Notes under the pieces: model-generated
The model's database searches: none
Told to the model about the DNA's origin: nothing
What the model saw: the letters and a program-made list of their open reading frames with translations, nothing else
Part shown: in pieces, positions 50,931-59,673 of the stretch
How positions within the stretch are numbered: the stretch's first letter is position 1
How the letters are laid out: the number at the start of each line of letters is the position of its first letter
DNA from: Kiritimatiellaeota bacterium B1221
GTDB taxonomy: Bacteria; Verrucomicrobiota; Kiritimatiellia; SS1-B-03-39; UBA6053
DNA length: 64,000 bases
Reading direction: 5' to 3'
Assembly: GCA_029269125.1 (NCBI GenBank)
Contig: JARHXX010000001.1
Span: 1 to 64,000 of the forward strand
Position numbers and translations under genes: made by a program

Positions 50931-51386
50931 TCACGCTTTCAAATTTTGTTCAAAAAACCGGGCATGCGCCTGCGTGCGAATACGCTCCGCCTGCCACAAC
51001 TCCGCCTCCACATCGTAAAGTGTTCGATAACGACCTGAGACCCAAACCCGAATGCGGGCAGGAACCCCGACCTCGACCGAAGCCCGATAACGCAATTTTA
51101 ATTCACAGGTTGCCGCATAAACTCCAATTCCCATCAAGGCACAGGTCATCGCCTGATCGATCAGAAATGACTGCAACCCACCATGCACCATACCGTTAAA
51201 ACTGGTCATTTCATTCGTGAAATCCAGTTCCGCCAATAATACCTGATCACTCTCCAGACTGAAATTCAACTTAAACACCGGATGCAGGTACGCCATACAA
51301 TGCCCATGCCCCCGTTGTCGAAGCGTCTCCAAACGAAGCAGGTTTTGATTGGGGAAACCACGTTTTGAATCCTCGGCCGTCTCCAT
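50931..51386 (-). CDS. Hotdog-fold thioesterase, PaaI/YiiD-like
   Basis: 151 residues with one hotdog domain. The core motif is TSFNGMVHGGLQSFLIDQAM, with the Asn, HGG and acidic Asp typical of acyl-CoA thioesterases of the PaaI group. The first 35 residues are polar. It shares one base with the stop of the regulator gene upstream (TGATG), so it is probably produced together with it and under its control. Acyl-CoA substrate unknown. Confidence 0.85.
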   Translation of the reverse strand: METAEDSKRGFPNQNLLRLETLRQRGHGHCMAYLHPVFKLNFSLESDQVLLAELDFTNEMTSFNGMVHGGLQSFLIDQAMTCALMGIGVYAATCELKLRYRASVEVGVPARIRVWVSGRYRTLYDVEAELWQAERIRTQAHARFFEQNLKA

Positions 51387-52051
51387 CAGGACCCCTCCTG
51401 CAGATAATCCAAGGTGCGGCCCAGACTCAACCCGCCGGAAACCAGCACCTCAATATTGTTTTTTGAGAGCAATGATAACGCTTCCGGTCCGAAACGGCCC
51501 GCCACCACTTTAACGACTTCATTGTTTTTCAGCAATTCCACCGCCAACTTTGCGGCATTCTTTTTCACCCCGAAACCGGGATTCGCAACCAGCCATGGAA
51601 CCCCTCCCCCTTCCGGCACCAACACAAAGGAGGGTGTCCTGCCAAACATCCGCTCAACCGCAGAATCAGGCAGGACGTTTTCGCACGCCACCGCCAGACA
51701 AGAGCCCTCCACCTTTTTAACCAAACGCTTGGCTGTACCTTTCCGAATAACCGACGTTTCCAGTAACAAATCGTCGCCTGCATCAATCGATAAAGGCACT
51801 TTTCGCTCAATGCCCAACGCGATCCCCCGCCGCGCCCTCTCCAACATACGTCCAGCCGTACTTTTGGACACGCCCATTTTGTCTGCGGCCTCTTGAAGAT
51901 GATACCCCCGGCCATCCACCCACCGCATCATTTCAAAATCCTCAATCGCAACTTCCACCACAGACGACTGGTCTGCAGTCAAGCCTGCCGGCACATAGAT
52001 CACCGGAGACGGCAACCTTTCCATTTTTCGTGTTTTTGGGGGACGGGCCAT
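51386..52051 (-). CDS. DUF134 (UPF0251) regulator fused to a NifX-type cofactor-binding domain
   Basis: 221 residues. The N-terminal DUF134 domain has IYVPAGLTADQ, EVAIEDFEMMRWVDGRGYH and a helix-turn-helix YHLQEAADKMGVSKSTAGRM at about 50-70. From about residue 100 a domain of the NifX/NifB-C/dinitrogenase-cofactor family follows (KKVEGSCLAVACEN, ERMFGRTPSFVLV, VVAGRFGPEALSLL, NIEVLVSGGLSLG). Fusions of this kind suggest a metal-cluster or cofactor-sensing transcription factor. AGGAG precedes the start. Just upstream is a promoter whose spacer is a palindrome, consistent with autoregulation. Confidence 0.85.
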   Translation of the reverse strand: MARPPKTRKMERLPSPVIYVPAGLTADQSSVVEVAIEDFEMMRWVDGRGYHLQEAADKMGVSKSTAGRMLERARRGIALGIERKVPLSIDAGDDLLLETSVIRKGTAKRLVKKVEGSCLAVACENVLPDSAVERMFGRTPSFVLVPEGGGVPWLVANPGFGVKKNAAKLAVELLKNNEVVKVVAGRFGPEALSLLSKNNIEVLVSGGLSLGRTLDYLQEGS

Positions 52052-52097: not shown

Positions 52098-52127
52098 ATA
52101 TTATGGGATTATTCCCATAACCGTCAA
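52098..52127 (-). promoter_or_regulatory. Promoter with operator-like palindrome before the DUF134 gene
   Basis: On the minus strand: -35 TTGACG (52122-52127), 18-base spacer, -10 TAATAT (52098-52103). The near-perfect palindrome TTATGGGAATAATCCCATAA (52101-52120, 7-bp arms) fills the spacer and touches the -10. The predicted start would give a leader of about 40 bases. A repressor or activator bound here would control the regulator-thioesterase transcript, and might also affect the divergent apgM gene. Confidence 0.7.
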
Positions 52128-52243: not shown

Positions 52244-53434
52244 ATGAAAACGGTTGTGTTGATTGGTGATGGTATGGGTGATTGGCCCTGCCCGATTTTA
52301 GATGGAAAAACCCCGCTACAGGCTGCTGTGGCTCCAAATATGCGGAAAATTGCGGCCGCGGGGAAGTTATATCTGGCCGACACCGTCCCGCCCGGACTGC
52401 CTCCCGGCTCTGATGTCGCCAACTTGGGTCTGCTGGGCTATGATGCCCGCGAATTTTATACCGGACGTGCCCCTATTGAAGCCGCCGGTGCCCACCTGCC
52501 TTTAAAAGAAACAGACGTGGCTTTACGCTGCAACCTGGTCCATATCGCCGACAACAAAATGGTAGACTATTCTTCCGGGCACATTTCCACTGAAGATGCC
52601 GCCCCCATGATTGCCACCCTGCAGGAAAAACTGGGGCGCCCCGGCCTGAGTTTTAATACCGGCGTGCAATATCGCCACCTGGTCATTTGGGATGGCGGCC
52701 CCACCGACCCGGTCACGCAACCACCCCATGACATTTTAACTCAGGATATTGACAAATACCTTCCCCACCGGGGCCGCGCACAGGAACTGCTGGATCTGAT
52801 GGAAGCGTCCAAAGAAATTTTGGCCAACCATCCTGTCAATATCGCCCGCAAAGAACGGGGAGAAGTGCCGGTCACCCAAATTTGGTTATGGGGGCAGGGG
52901 CCCGCGCTTAAAATTCCCACTTATCAGGAACTCTACAACTTAACCGGCACCATTATTACCGCGGTGGATCTGGTGCGCGGCCTCGGGGTGCTCGCCGGTC
53001 TGGACACCCCCGAAGTTCCCGGTGCCACCGGCTGGGTCGACACCAACTACCAGGGCAAAGTCGACTATGCCCTCAAAGCCCTGGAGACCCAGGACTTTGT
53101 TTATGTGCATGTGGAGGCCCCCGATGAATGCGGACATGTAGGCGATGCAAAACTCAAAACCCAAGCCATTTCTGATTTTGATGCCAAAGTGGTCGAACCC
53201 ATCTGGCAAGCACTGGAAACAGCGGGAGCCCCCTACCGTCTGTTGGTCACCATGGATCACAGAACACCTGTCGAAATCCGTGGGCATTCCGCAGAACCCG
53301 TTCCTTTGGCCACCCTCGAAGGCCCGGTCGGAGCCGTCACCGAAGAATGCGATTTCGATGAATTTATCCACAATGGCAATATCGATATCCGCACCTTCGA
53401 ATGGATCCCGACCTGGTTGCGCGGAGAAGCATGA
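52244..53434 (+). CDS. apgM: Cofactor-independent phosphoglycerate mutase, archaeal type
   Basis: Interconverts 3- and 2-phosphoglycerate without 2,3-BPG. 396 residues, with the alkaline-phosphatase-like metal and serine motifs: VVLIGDGMGDWP (Asp9), PPGSDVANLGLLGYD (nucleophile Ser56), HVEAPDECGHVGD, TMDHRTPVEIRGHS. Length is about 100 residues shorter than the GpmI type. First gene of a coupled three-gene unit; its stop overlaps the next start by four bases. Confidence 0.92.
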   Translation: MKTVVLIGDGMGDWPCPILDGKTPLQAAVAPNMRKIAAAGKLYLADTVPPGLPPGSDVANLGLLGYDAREFYTGRAPIEAAGAHLPLKETDVALRCNLVHIADNKMVDYSSGHISTEDAAPMIATLQEKLGRPGLSFNTGVQYRHLVIWDGGPTDPVTQPPHDILTQDIDKYLPHRGRAQELLDLMEASKEILANHPVNIARKERGEVPVTQIWLWGQGPALKIPTYQELYNLTGTIITAVDLVRGLGVLAGLDTPEVPGATGWVDTNYQGKVDYALKALETQDFVYVHVEAPDECGHVGDAKLKTQAISDFDAKVVEPIWQALETAGAPYRLLVTMDHRTPVEIRGHSAEPVPLATLEGPVGAVTEECDFDEFIHNGNIDIRTFEWIPTWLRGEA

Positions 53435-54528: not shown

Positions 54529-55397
54529 ACGAAAGAAAGCTTGGACTGACGCAGGCTTATATTTCGGTCATCCTGATGGGGATCGGCATCACCGTGATTC
54601 AAACTCTGCCCATCCCCGCCCAGACGCTGGTATGGTACCGGGTCGCGATTGCTGCCCCGGGGCTGGCCCTGTATGCCTTACTCTCCAAACAACCTCTGTA
54701 TGTCCCGCGAAATATGAGGAATTCCCTGTTTTGGGCTGCCCTGCTGACGGGAGGACACTGGGTGACTTTGTTTATTTCCATTACCATGAGCACGGTGGCC
54801 ATCGGCATGATCAGCTTTTACTGCTTCCCCGTTTTCACCACTTTGTTTGAAGCCGCCCTGCAAAGACGTAAACCGGCGGCGCGGGATTTAGGGGTCGCCG
54901 CACTGGTTTTGGTGGGGGTAACCTTACTCACTCCCATCACCGGTGCTTCGATTGAATTATTGCCCGGAGTGCTCATTGGCGTTTTTTCCGGGATTCTTTG
55001 GGCCGGAAGAATGGTGGTGATCCGTCATCGCCTGAAAGAAATTTCCGGATTGGCCACCATGTTCTGGTCCATGGTGGTGATGATGGTATTCCTGAGCCCC
55101 TTTCTTATCCAGGCGCCCCCACCCTGGCAATGGGAGGGATCGGTCATCCGCGGAGTGCTTTTTCTCGGATTGTTTGTCACCGCATTTTGTCACACCCTGC
55201 TGCTCTCCAGCCTGCGCCATATCTCCGCCACCCTGGTGGGACAAATCTCCCCCATTCAAATCGTATCCGCGTCCCTCGCGGGCTGGCTTTTTCTGAAGGA
55301 GCCCCTCACCCTCCGCATCCTTGCGGGCGGATTGTTAATTGCCTGCACCGGATTTGTGGTCGCCAGGTTCTTTAAAGAACCCTCTGTAGATCCTTAA
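54525..55397 (+). CDS. EamA-family (drug/metabolite transporter superfamily) membrane protein
   Basis: 290 residues, about ten transmembrane helices forming two EamA repeats (roughly 5-135 and 145-285). The C-terminal repeat ends in QISPIQIVSASLAGWLFLKE, the usual end of an EamA repeat. Likely exports or imports a small metabolite; the substrate cannot be inferred. Coupled by ATGA to the glycosyltransferase. Its stop overlaps the stop of the convergent PEP-CTERM gene, so there is no room for a terminator. Confidence 0.88.
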   Translation: MNERKLGLTQAYISVILMGIGITVIQTLPIPAQTLVWYRVAIAAPGLALYALLSKQPLYVPRNMRNSLFWAALLTGGHWVTLFISITMSTVAIGMISFYCFPVFTTLFEAALQRRKPAARDLGVAALVLVGVTLLTPITGASIELLPGVLIGVFSGILWAGRMVVIRHRLKEISGLATMFWSMVVMMVFLSPFLIQAPPPWQWEGSVIRGVLFLGLFVTAFCHTLLLSSLRHISATLVGQISPIQIVSASLAGWLFLKEPLTLRILAGGLLIACTGFVVARFFKEPSVDP

Positions 55398-58300
55398 CCC
55401 CGCTTCCGGCGGCGGGCAAAGAAAAAACAGGTGACCATCGCCCCAAAGAATAGAGCCAGACTGGAGAGTTCAGGGACCGCGTAAATCATAACATCGTTCC
55501 CGTCACCTCCGGCATAATCGATCAGTAAATCCACATCATCCACGGTTGTCACCGTGGCTCCCTGCGCAAGCCCATTGAAAGTACCGGTGAGTGTTCCGCC
55601 TACGTTAATCAACATGATTTCCATATAGCCGGGAGCAGAAAGGAAAGTGGGAATCAAGTTAAGGTCCACATCCGTGAGCGTGACATTTCCCCATACATCA
55701 AGCTGGTCATACGCGACCTGCCCATTTTCCAGACGGTTCAACTCCATATTCAGTACACCGCCGGTTGCTTCGTAGTCACCATACACCACCAAAGTTCCCG
55801 GACTGTTCCCCGGGCTGATGGTCCCTCCGGATTGCGACAGGTTCCCGATTAAATTTCCAGACCCCGAAAGGTCTCCGTCGGAAACCGTGTAGGTGGCCAG
55901 GGTGATATCCCGGTCGCCAAAAGCATCTGTACTGGAAGTGCCGGCCACAGTGAAGATCCCGTCAATTTGTGAAGTGCCTCCGGAATGAATGTAATCACCG
56001 TTAATGAAAAAAGAGGAGGATCCTCCGACCTCGAAATGGCCTGCGGTTTGAGTGAAATCCCCTCCCGTTTCCAAAGAAGCACCATTTACAATTTCCAGGG
56101 TTCCGGAATTGGTCAGCGCACCGTCGAGTACAAAACTTCCGCCCTCCACGCGAAAAGTTCCCTGGTTATCCGACAGAGATTTATAGGCCTCAAAGGTGGT
56201 GTTTTCTCCGGCCACTTCAAGCGTTCCCATGTTGGTTTGAATTTCCTGCGTACCCCAATCCACCACGGTTGCGTTTCCTCCGCTGGAGCTGACCCGCCAG
56301 TTTCCGGTGAATCCTCCTTCGCTAAGATCGGTGACAATCACCAAATCCCCAGCTGTGAGGGTTCCTCCTGAGATTTCCACCCGGTTTCCATTGGTATTAA
56401 AAATACTGGTATCCTCAAATACGCTGTCTCCCTCTGTTTGAGTAAATGTGCCATTGACAGCCAGCATGCCACCATCCGAAACCGAAAGAACGCCCCGATT
56501 CCTTAAATCTCCCGCGGTGGTGAAATCGTGATTAGACAGAGAGAAGCTTCCTTCATTTTCGCTAAGCGTACTGAAGTAATCCCACACGATCGTTTCACCG
56601 GCATAGGAGACATTTGCGCGGTTGAGACGCAAAGCCCCATTGTACTCCGTTTGTATATCCCCAAAAATTTCTGACTCGGTCCAAACGACCCGGTTCGGAT
56701 TCATAGTAATTTGGGCGGTGCCTGAATCACTCACCAAATTCCAGGTGCCGCCATCCAGGATATCTAATTCCCCTCCCACCACATTGGCCACGTTCATGGT
56801 AACATCCAGATGCGCATCCGTGACGGTTAGAGTCCCCTGATTGTTTAAAACATCCGGGCGTTGATAAGGGAAGACCAGAGGAACAAATTCACTGAGCGTG
56901 GTGGTTCCATTGTTGACCGATATTTCTCCTGCATTCTCCAAAAAGATCCCGATATTAAGGTTGGAACCGGTGAAATGAAGTTCGCTGTCCGCATCTACTG
57001 ACACATGTGCCTGCAGGGTCCCTGCAATGTCGGCGGTTGAGTTCACCAAATCAATTTGAGTGCGGTGGGCATTGGCACCCAGAACACTATCCGCATCGAT
57101 ACTCAGACTGCTGTCCGTGAGGCTGAGATTCGTATAGTAGATGGCACTGTTATATAAGGAGATAACGGAGTCATTCGCGGCTGTCATTTGTCCATCCATC
57201 CGGTCATCGGAGATCGAGGCGGAGGTCATATTCACATCCAAAAATCCCAGCGTGGCATCATCGAGCAGGAAGGTCCCGTTGTTTTGGTCGAGTGCGGTAC
57301 CTGCGGTCATATTTCCGGTTGTGATATACATCTGCGCCCCATCCGAAAGCTGGGTTTCCCCCTGATGAATATACGAAACGACATCCGCAGTTACAAAGCT
57401 ACCTGAACCCGTGCCCATAAGATTTCCGAGTTGAAGGAGAGACAGGCGATTGCCCCCCGCGCTGGCGTAGCCCAATCCCAGGCTGCTGTCATCCACATCC
57501 AATAAGGTGTTGGCCCCTAACGTTAAAAGATCTCCATTCACCGCGGTAGGACCTGCACCCACAAAGGCCTGACTTCCTCCGCTTACCCGAATCGCCCCCC
57601 CTCCTGAAACCGTTGTATCCGTATTAAAAAGCAGCTCGGGATCGCTTCCGGTTCCCGACGTATCCAAATGAATCTCGCCACCCAGACCCAGGATGCTCTG
57701 CGAAAGCGTCAACGAACTGTCCCGGTCGATCTCTAAACTGGCTGTGCCTGGCATAAAAAGATTGGCCACGGCCTCATGCCCTCTCAGGGTGACTGCGGTC
57801 GTCCCTCCCATAAACACATTATTCGTTTCCCCGGGTTTGCTTGTCGCGACAGGCAGGTTCGACCAGTTTGCGGCCGTGTCCCAATATCCAGTTCCAGCAC
57901 CAGCCCAGCTGACATCGCTCAGAGCCACTTCCAGCGAGAAGCTTCCCCCGGAAAATGAAGAGAGACCTGAAAGGGTAAAGGTATCATCAAATACCTTCAA
58001 GCTCCCCACGCCTGCGATATCCGGATGCGAAAACAATGAAGTGGATTCGTCAAACAACGCGGCACTAAACTCACCGATCCCCAACATGGATGCGGAGAAC
58101 TGCAAAAGCTGAACTGCGAGTTCATCTTCAACGGTGAGAAAGGTCTGATTCCTCACTTCCGCCAAAAGGGAAAACATCACATCCACATCCACCTGAGTCG
58201 CATCCAGCATCGCGATTTCCGGCAAGGCCTCCCACAGACCTTTCCAACGGGTCACCTCCGATTCGACCCCATTCTCCAAAATGGATACAGGGCGGGAAAA

Positions 58301-59377
58301 GGTTAATTCAGCCTCTAGACCGGGAGTAAATTGAAAGTCCTGGGACATGCCGAAAGAAGGTCCGTATTCAATATTCAACAGGTCAACCGCAATGGATGCC
58401 ACATTGACCCCATGAATATCAACATCATACCCCACCCCAAGTCCATAAGGGGCTCCGATAACGAGTTGGGTGGCCATGGCATCAATATCCCCCCGAATAT
58501 CCATGAGCTGAGCAGACCCGCTGGTGGACATAGACCCATCCTCATTTGTTGTGGACGTGGTGGTTTCAATTACGGGGTTGTAGGGGGTGATGCTTCCGTA
58601 ATCAAATACCGGAGATGTGGGGGGGATCCGGACAGCCGTTCCGTCCACAGGCACCGGCGAGACAAAGGTATCCCCAAACACCGCGAGGTGATTGGGGTCT
58701 TCTCCATAAATATTATAGCTGAAGATATTGGGCGCAGTGTAACTGAGATCTAAACTTTCGGTGATGGTATCCACGCCCAAGCCAATGAGACCGTACGATG
58801 CCTCAATACTCGCAGAGGCATTCATCTCCAAATTGGACTCCACATCCAGTCCGGTAAAAGAAGTTTCGAAAACAGGGGAACCCGTAAGCCCATTACTCGT
58901 GGTGAGATTATTGTGTACGCCGATCCGCATTTCCGGCACATAAATATTAGGGTCATAACTAACAGAAGCATTGGCGGTGCCGGCGTCCAAATGAAAATAT
59001 GTCCTCAGACCGGCAGTCATCTCCGCCGAAAAATCCACCTTCAATCCCGTGCGGGTGTCTGCCCGCACTGCCGGTGTGCAACCCACGAATGGAATACAGA
59101 CTCTGGGAATAATCGTGGCATTCTGACTTCCTGTGAAACCTCCAAAACTTGTACTCACTGAGATTTCTTCGAATCCCTGAAAAAATTCATAGGTGATCCC
59201 GTCGGTATTGCTGTTTCCCCATATGCCCGTCTCAGCGGATGAAAACGAGACCGCATCCAAATCCACTAACACTTGTGCGAAAAGAGGGCTTCCTCCCAGC
59301 ATAAGCATAACCCCTATTGAAAAATGCAAAGACCGGATAATGGATATTCTGCAAGAAAAGGAAATTTTAGAATTCAT
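55394..59377 (-). CDS. Giant PEP-CTERM-type surface protein, autotransporter-like repeats
   Basis: About 1327 residues from the chosen start. Signal peptide at about 1-35 (MNSKISFSCRISI to GSPLFAQ). The middle and C-terminal parts (about 520-1200) are full of short repeats with NxGTLxVxxGxL and FTQTxG patterns, as in beta-helical passenger domains. Before the end is a domain with DYEATGGVLNMELN and GDGNDVMIYAV. The last 26 residues form a sorting tail: VPELSSLALFFGAMVTCFFF then ARRRKRG, that is a VPEP-like motif, a hydrophobic helix and basic residues. An in-frame ATG at 59431 would add 18 residues; neither start has a good ribosome site. The motif has Leu at the second Pro position. Confidence 0.8.
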   Translation of the reverse strand: MNSKISFSCRISIIRSLHFSIGVMLMLGGSPLFAQVLVDLDAVSFSSAETGIWGNSNTDGITYEFFQGFEEISVSTSFGGFTGSQNATIIPRVCIPFVGCTPAVRADTRTGLKVDFSAEMTAGLRTYFHLDAGTANASVSYDPNIYVPEMRIGVHNNLTTSNGLTGSPVFETSFTGLDVESNLEMNASASIEASYGLIGLGVDTITESLDLSYTAPNIFSYNIYGEDPNHLAVFGDTFVSPVPVDGTAVRIPPTSPVFDYGSITPYNPVIETTTSTTNEDGSMSTSGSAQLMDIRGDIDAMATQLVIGAPYGLGVGYDVDIHGVNVASIAVDLLNIEYGPSFGMSQDFQFTPGLEAELTFSRPVSILENGVESEVTRWKGLWEALPEIAMLDATQVDVDVMFSLLAEVRNQTFLTVEDELAVQLLQFSASMLGIGEFSAALFDESTSLFSHPDIAGVGSLKVFDDTFTLSGLSSFSGGSFSLEVALSDVSWAGAGTGYWDTAANWSNLPVATSKPGETNNVFMGGTTAVTLRGHEAVANLFMPGTASLEIDRDSSLTLSQSILGLGGEIHLDTSGTGSDPELLFNTDTTVSGGGAIRVSGGSQAFVGAGPTAVNGDLLTLGANTLLDVDDSSLGLGYASAGGNRLSLLQLGNLMGTGSGSFVTADVVSYIHQGETQLSDGAQMYITTGNMTAGTALDQNNGTFLLDDATLGFLDVNMTSASISDDRMDGQMTAANDSVISLYNSAIYYTNLSLTDSSLSIDADSVLGANAHRTQIDLVNSTADIAGTLQAHVSVDADSELHFTGSNLNIGIFLENAGEISVNNGTTTLSEFVPLVFPYQRPDVLNNQGTLTVTDAHLDVTMNVANVVGGELDILDGGTWNLVSDSGTAQITMNPNRVVWTESEIFGDIQTEYNGALRLNRANVSYAGETIVWDYFSTLSENEGSFSLSNHDFTTAGDLRNRGVLSVSDGGMLAVNGTFTQTEGDSVFEDTSIFNTNGNRVEISGGTLTAGDLVIVTDLSEGGFTGNWRVSSSGGNATVVDWGTQEIQTNMGTLEVAGENTTFEAYKSLSDNQGTFRVEGGSFVLDGALTNSGTLEIVNGASLETGGDFTQTAGHFEVGGSSSFFINGDYIHSGGTSQIDGIFTVAGTSSTDAFGDRDITLATYTVSDGDLSGSGNLIGNLSQSGGTISPGNSPGTLVVYGDYEATGGVLNMELNRLENGQVAYDQLDVWGNVTLTDVDLNLIPTFLSAPGYMEIMLINVGGTLTGTFNGLAQGATVTTVDDVDLLIDYAGGDGNDVMIYAVPELSSLALFFGAMVTCFFFARRRKRG

Positions 59378-59673
59378 GATGCTTGGTAAGGCTGTGTTTT
59401 TATCACTCGGATCGAAAATCCCATATTTCACATCAGATCACATAGAGACATCCTTTTTCGACCAACGGCACGGATTTATCGACGAACGACATTTTTACCG
59501 GTCTTTTGATGCTTAAAATGTCCTCCAAAGGGAGGTCATTTACGAAATACAGCTTTCTTGCTATTGGCTTTTCCTTGAAGTAGAGCACTTAGATATACGA
59601 TTATCCTGCATTCAGATCCTTTGTTTTCATTGAGCCGTATTCCTCACGGATCAGAGACCCTTATTTTTACAAC

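Follow-up and report, generated by a model that had tools for sequence, protein, structure and literature searches.

A candidate autoregulatory operator embedded in the promoter of a DUF134-NifX gene, with counterparts upstream of most sampled DUF134 genes

Described systems closest to the locus

DUF134 proteins (UPF0251; PF02001, COG1342) are present in bacteria and archaea, and we know of no function assigned to them. A search of the open-access literature turned up no account of a DUF134 operator, and the family-wide operator described below appears to be undescribed; as a device, a promoter-embedded autorepressor is of an ordinary kind.

The closest solved helix-turn-helix domains by sequence are those of the SorC/DeoR repressors (B. 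subtilis DeoR, 7bhy and 8r7y; E = 8e-7). The DeoR segment ISRPTVSRL aligns with the DUF134 recognition helix, and its palindrome half-site, TTGAACA, resembles the TGAACA found in some DUF134 operators. DeoR Arg39, aligned with the arginine of the DUF134 S-R pair, contacts operator bases (PMC11229326). The DUF134 protein examined here, however, lacks a SorC effector domain by Pfam and fold search and carries an ORP/NifX-like domain instead, and judged by sequence the two groups share a related helix-turn-helix only. A second parallel is DVU2106, which regulates ORP-type genes and exerts negative feedback through a palindromic site lying over its own sigma-70 promoter (PMC3897727). This regulator of the Desulfovibrio orp operons resembles DUF134 in having a palindrome over the sigma-70 promoter of an ORP-type-gene regulator, but it is a sigma-54 enhancer-binding activator, whereas DUF134 is a small helix-turn-helix protein with sigma-70 promoters. 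Critical gaps remain in the regulation of Mrp/NifX/ORP-type metal-cluster genes in anaerobes (PMC6345978), for which DUF134 would be a candidate dedicated regulator.

The regulator locus and its promoter palindrome

We analysed a 64,000-nucleotide stretch of DNA (the window) that contains a DUF134 gene, the only PF02001 gene of its genome. The features of the locus are as follows.

52122-52127, minus strand: -35 element TTGACG; both congeners carry TTGCAA at the same place
52101-52120, minus strand: palindrome TTATGGGAATAATCCCATAA, predicted DUF134 operator; kept in the congeners G002 and G004, 17/20 match to the family
52100-52105, minus strand: preferred -10 element CATAAT, mostly from the operator's own end; spacer 16, 5/6 to TATAAT
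52098-52103, minus strand: alternative -10 element TAATAT, from the initial annotation; spacer 18
51386-52051, minus strand: gene for a 221-aa protein with a DUF134 domain (aa 2-92) and an ORP/NifX-like PF02579 domain (aa 129-207), by profile, model and fold search
50931-51386, minus strand: 4HBT (PaaI-like hotdog) thioesterase gene, its start overlapping the regulator stop (TGATG)

The initial annotation had placed a TTGACG-18-TAATAT promoter and a palindrome on the minus strand at 52098-52127, and both are present as described. In minus-strand order, TTGACG (52127-52122) is followed by a G and then by TTATGGGAATAATCCCATAA (52120-52101), which is 20 bp long with perfect 8-bp arms around a 4-bp centre and ends 49 bases upstream of the DUF134-NifX gene start (52051). 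The palindrome had been said to fill the spacer; it does cover 17 of the 18 spacer bases, but its last three bases lie inside TAATAT. By sequence, CATAAT (52105-52100) is the better -10 element, and with either candidate the -10 is partly built from the palindrome end.

The gene calls of the initial annotation were right. Profile matches place DUF134 (PF02001; E = 5.5e-11, 43.3 bits, cut-off 27, aa 2-92) and Nitro_FeMo-Co (PF02579; E = 3.3e-7, 30.9 bits, cut-off 26.3) in one protein, with the 4HBT thioesterase next. The recognition helix VSKSTAGRML (aa 61-70) carries Arg68, and the conserved S-R-x-T-x-x-(R/N/L) helix appears as SKSTAGR in the window protein and SRSTAGR in two orthologues. On sequence criteria the window protein is a divergent DUF134 subfamily: it scores above the Pfam cut-off and has the family's promoter palindrome, but it is fused to PF02579, its helix reads SKSTAGR rather than SRPTFxR, and its operator centre is AATAAT rather than CATATG. 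The structure model has a mean pLDDT of 72.8 and is unreliable at residues 1-16 and in the linker (92-115).

Inverted repeats of TTATGGGAATAATCCCATAA quality number 19 in the window, nested ones included, compared with 2-15 in 12 shuffles, and TTATGGG-N6-CCCATAA with up to 3 mismatches gives 2 window matches against 2.8 expected. Judged alone, the bare inverted repeat at 52101-52120 is not significant. Because it is unremarkable as a repeat, its meaning was sought by comparison, and its significance rests on conservation. Genome matches to TTATGGGA-N4-TCCCATAA at 3 mismatches (14 sites versus 17 in the control) were taken as chance.

Among 116 genomes searched, two congeners carry orthologues, with 66% (G004) and 57% (G002) protein identity; in a further congener, G001, neither the gene nor a close palindrome site was found. 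Conservation upstream of orthologues, the check proposed in the initial annotation, was run. In G004 and G002 alike the palindrome, as TTATGGGAATAGTCCCATAA and TTATGGGAATAATCTCATAA, stands at the promoter position it has in the window, each time preceded by TTGCAA and followed by TAATGT or TAATAT, in upstream DNA that is otherwise dissimilar and beside a different divergent neighbour gene. The site could in principle serve the divergent phosphoglycerate mutase gene apgM (52244-53434, plus strand), as it lies in the intergenic region common to both genes. In G002, however, apgM is about 3 kb off with other genes between, the palindrome staying with DUF134, and the family operator follows DUF134 across phyla. 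We therefore regard service to apgM as highly improbable, and apgM as sole target was rejected on the G002 gene order.

The overlap of the regulator and thioesterase genes, together with the same gene order in congeners, supports the co-transcription that had been proposed for them. The thioesterase is an operon partner in 4/5 congeneric genomes: the operon comprises regulator and thioesterase in the window; regulator, thioesterase and ABC transporter in G004; regulator, His-tailed NifX protein, thioesterase (which follows the NifX gene) and ABC transporter in G002; and, in G003, a canonical DUF134, whose operator is near-canonical, together with a thioesterase of 30% identity and a NifX protein. 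By these gene orders it is a stable, lineage-specific DUF134 partner in the genus. It is not the usual target of the DUF134 family. On another contig of the window's genome (G000:C133:4555-4815, L219) lies a second NifX-like gene, which stands alone and encodes a His-rich tail; no DUF134 operator was seen upstream of it. A comparable gene sits inside the DUF134 operon in G002 and G003.

A candidate family-wide operator and the DUF134 recognition helix

Matches with 2 mismatches in a scan of relatives with the window motif were mostly set aside. The exception, G085, from another family, has TTATGGGCATATGCCCATAA directly upstream of its DUF134 gene and led to the family motif. The upstreams of the other DUF134 genes of the class share the design of this site, and a palindrome of the form TTATG(A/G)GCATATGC(T/C)CATAA lies upstream of most sampled DUF134 genes. 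Within the class, the site occurs in 26/29 DUF134 upstreams (up to 5 of 20 mismatches), compared with 0.3% per shuffled upstream.

The search motif TTATGNNCATATGNNCATAA, derived from the class, was then run on 80 DUF134 loci from many phyla, which were chosen by protein pattern and not at random, and a few of which are genomes already in the class set. A genome-contig scan with a single protein had found no relatives, and a broad DUF134 alignment was too diverse as a query; a narrower alignment succeeded. In the 200 bases upstream, 58/80 loci have the site with up to 3 of 16 mismatches, compared with 0.25% of dinucleotide shuffles; by the same limits it is absent from 22. Loci with the site come from Chloroflexota, Acidobacteriota, Planctomycetota, Omnitrophota, Lentisphaerota, Gemmatimonadota, Zixibacteria, Bacillota and Deltaproteobacteria.

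Compared with the consensus TTATGRGCATATGCYCATAA, the window site agrees at 17/20 positions, with all three mismatches central and the arms intact, and so has the TTATG-RGCATATGCY-CATAA promoter palindrome of the family. It is the sole consensus match at up to 3 mismatches in the 4.52-Mb genome; the next best 20-mer of the window has 6. In the window, inverted repeats of similar size are not rare, as a functionless chance repeat would require, but the same position in two species with otherwise dissimilar upstream DNA and the 17/20 match to an operator present in other phyla leave chance hardly credible. The operator centre in the window's genus is AATAAT, against CATATG in the family, and carrying the family mode of binding over to this altered centre and its divergent DUF134 domain is an extrapolation from sequence. 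A different palindrome, TATGCGCATATGCGCATA, occurs in 1-8 copies per genome in several relatives (G033, G034, G060 and G018), mostly away from DUF134; it was set aside and looks like a different repeat family.

The operators coincide with predicted promoters. A sigma-70-like hexamer pair (up to 4 mismatches) accompanies 53/54 scored family operators, several of these promoters being perfect TTGACA-N17-TATAAT, and 51/54 operators overlap the -35 to +1 region. The preferred registers place the operator on the -10, immediately downstream of it or, as in the window, in the spacer, and the family -10 often falls at the operator's end, again as in the window. An operator over the regulator's own core promoter, as expected of an autorepressor, is therefore found in the window and the family alike, for predicted promoters. 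Strong promoters covered by the operator in several registers point to repression.

The last residue of the recognition helix S-R-x-T-x-x-R tracks base 5 of the half-site: Arg accompanies G in 120/134 half-sites and Asn or Leu accompanies T in 32/32 (Fisher 1.4e-23, for half-sites and relatives that are not independent). On the tree, four changes are needed per trait, with only one independent pair on well-supported branches, and we consider the residue-to-base-5 rule suggestive. The arginine of the window protein and both orthologues occupies this position, and the window operator retains the base-5 G that goes with Arg68. Two genes (L011 and L034) with S-Q instead of S-R have T at base 8, and Arg versus Gln may perhaps set that base. 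Two archaeal DUF134 genes with S-Q-P-T-F helices (L136 and L161) have TTGAAT...ATTCAA palindromes upstream, TTGAATATCTATTCAA and TTGAATACAAATTCAA, which are nearer to the B. subtilis DeoR half-site than to the bacterial DUF134 operator.

Candidate regulon, effector domain and predicted mechanism

Each of 45 genomes from other lineages has 0-2 sites with the strict motif and none with the reversed control. Six extra sites were inspected: three precede a further DUF134 copy (L210, L211 and L213) and three have no clear target. A few sites lie before other genes: an operon of P-loop ATPase, MBL, Mrp and NifX genes identified by Pfam (L178) and, by inspection only, a P-loop ATPase gene (L139), MBL and DUF1847 genes (L112), genes for a ZIP-like transporter and a second DUF134-like protein (L108), and, with DUF134 next in line, TatD or TrmO genes (L118 and L149). 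This distribution fits a small regulon centred on autoregulation. At L112, two DUF134-type operator copies lie about 120 bp apart between the divergent MBL-fold and DUF1847 genes (L112:3583-3726), with further copies upstream of DUF134 itself, which suggests tandem operators in Tepidanaerobacteraceae.

A site-gene association alone does not identify the binding protein, and the palindrome might be bound by another protein that controls DUF134 genes, such as a global metal or redox regulator. We think this improbable, as the strict motif hardly occurs away from DUF134 genes, a global regulator would be expected to have many other targets, and base 5 changes along with the DUF134 recognition-helix residue. 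It is very probable that the DUF134 protein itself uses the 52101-52120 site as its operator. Autoregulation, as the initial annotation proposed, is well supported by the comparative evidence: the palindrome before both orthologues and the operator before most DUF134 genes sampled.

As to the direction of control, DUF134 might activate its own operon, or repress itself and activate others in the manner of the unrelated DVU2106, which switches on the orp operons and uses an overlapping site to repress its own sigma-70 promoter (PMC3897727); the few operator copies that precede other operons would suit such a scheme. The sites, however, occupy the -35/-10 spacer, the -10 itself or the bases just downstream of it, places typical of repression, and many of the promoters are near consensus, where an activator is not needed, so that activation seems unlikely. 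Autorepression is the most likely role, with control by ligand-induced binding a further possibility.

The C-terminal domain of the window protein belongs to the ORP/NifX family (PF02579) by profile match and by the fold of its predicted model, which resembles ORP, MTH1175 and NifX; it differs in being fused to a DNA-binding domain, and any binding of a Mo-Cu-S, Fe-S or FeMo-type cluster is a prediction. The best PDB match is the Desulfovibrio gigas orange protein (2wfb; E = 2.6e-7, TM 0.80 by target), followed by MTH1175-like proteins and NifX (9ian). The commonest products downstream of DUF134 are Nitro_FeMo-Co proteins (20/92), DUF5320 (17) and NUBPL-type ATPases (7), together with the putative heavy-metal chelation families DUF364 (8) and DUF4213 (7). 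Because of the ORP/NifX-like fold and the Mrp/NifX/DUF5320 neighbours, metal-cluster sensing by the fused domain is plausible.

The site, its promoter register and its conservation are read directly from the sequence, as are the family-wide operator and the residue-base correlation; from these we infer binding, dimerization, repression instead of activation, and a ligand. A DUF134 helix-turn-helix dimer would bind the two half-sites of TTATGGGAATAATCCCATAA, and the bound protein, sitting between -35 and -10 and over part of the -10, would block RNA polymerase. The repressed operon would comprise regulator and thioesterase in the window, joined in sister species by a NifX protein and/or an ABC transporter. 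A metal cluster or a related ligand is probably bound by the C-terminal domain, and this binding would change DNA affinity. That TTATGGGAATAATCCCATAA is the operator through which the DUF134-NifX protein represses its own operon in this way is, in our judgement, a good deal more probable than any alternative. A broader proposal could go either way: that DUF134 proteins are widespread autorepressors with one operator design and helix-set specificity (Arg versus Asn/Leu at base 5 and perhaps Arg versus Gln at base 8), sensing metal-cluster supply to control Mrp/NifX/ORP-type genes, and that the window's genus has fused the sensor, changed the operator centre and recruited a thioesterase. The operator, the residue-to-base rule and the short list of target operons turn a "predicted DNA-binding protein" into a testable regulator family, and the window palindrome, as the local version of a switch before most sampled DUF134 genes, provides a concrete DNA target.

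Elsewhere in the window, positions 55394-59431 (minus strand) encode a 1345-aa repetitive autotransporter-like protein with a PEP-CTERM-like end made up of a hydrophobic segment and a basic tail.
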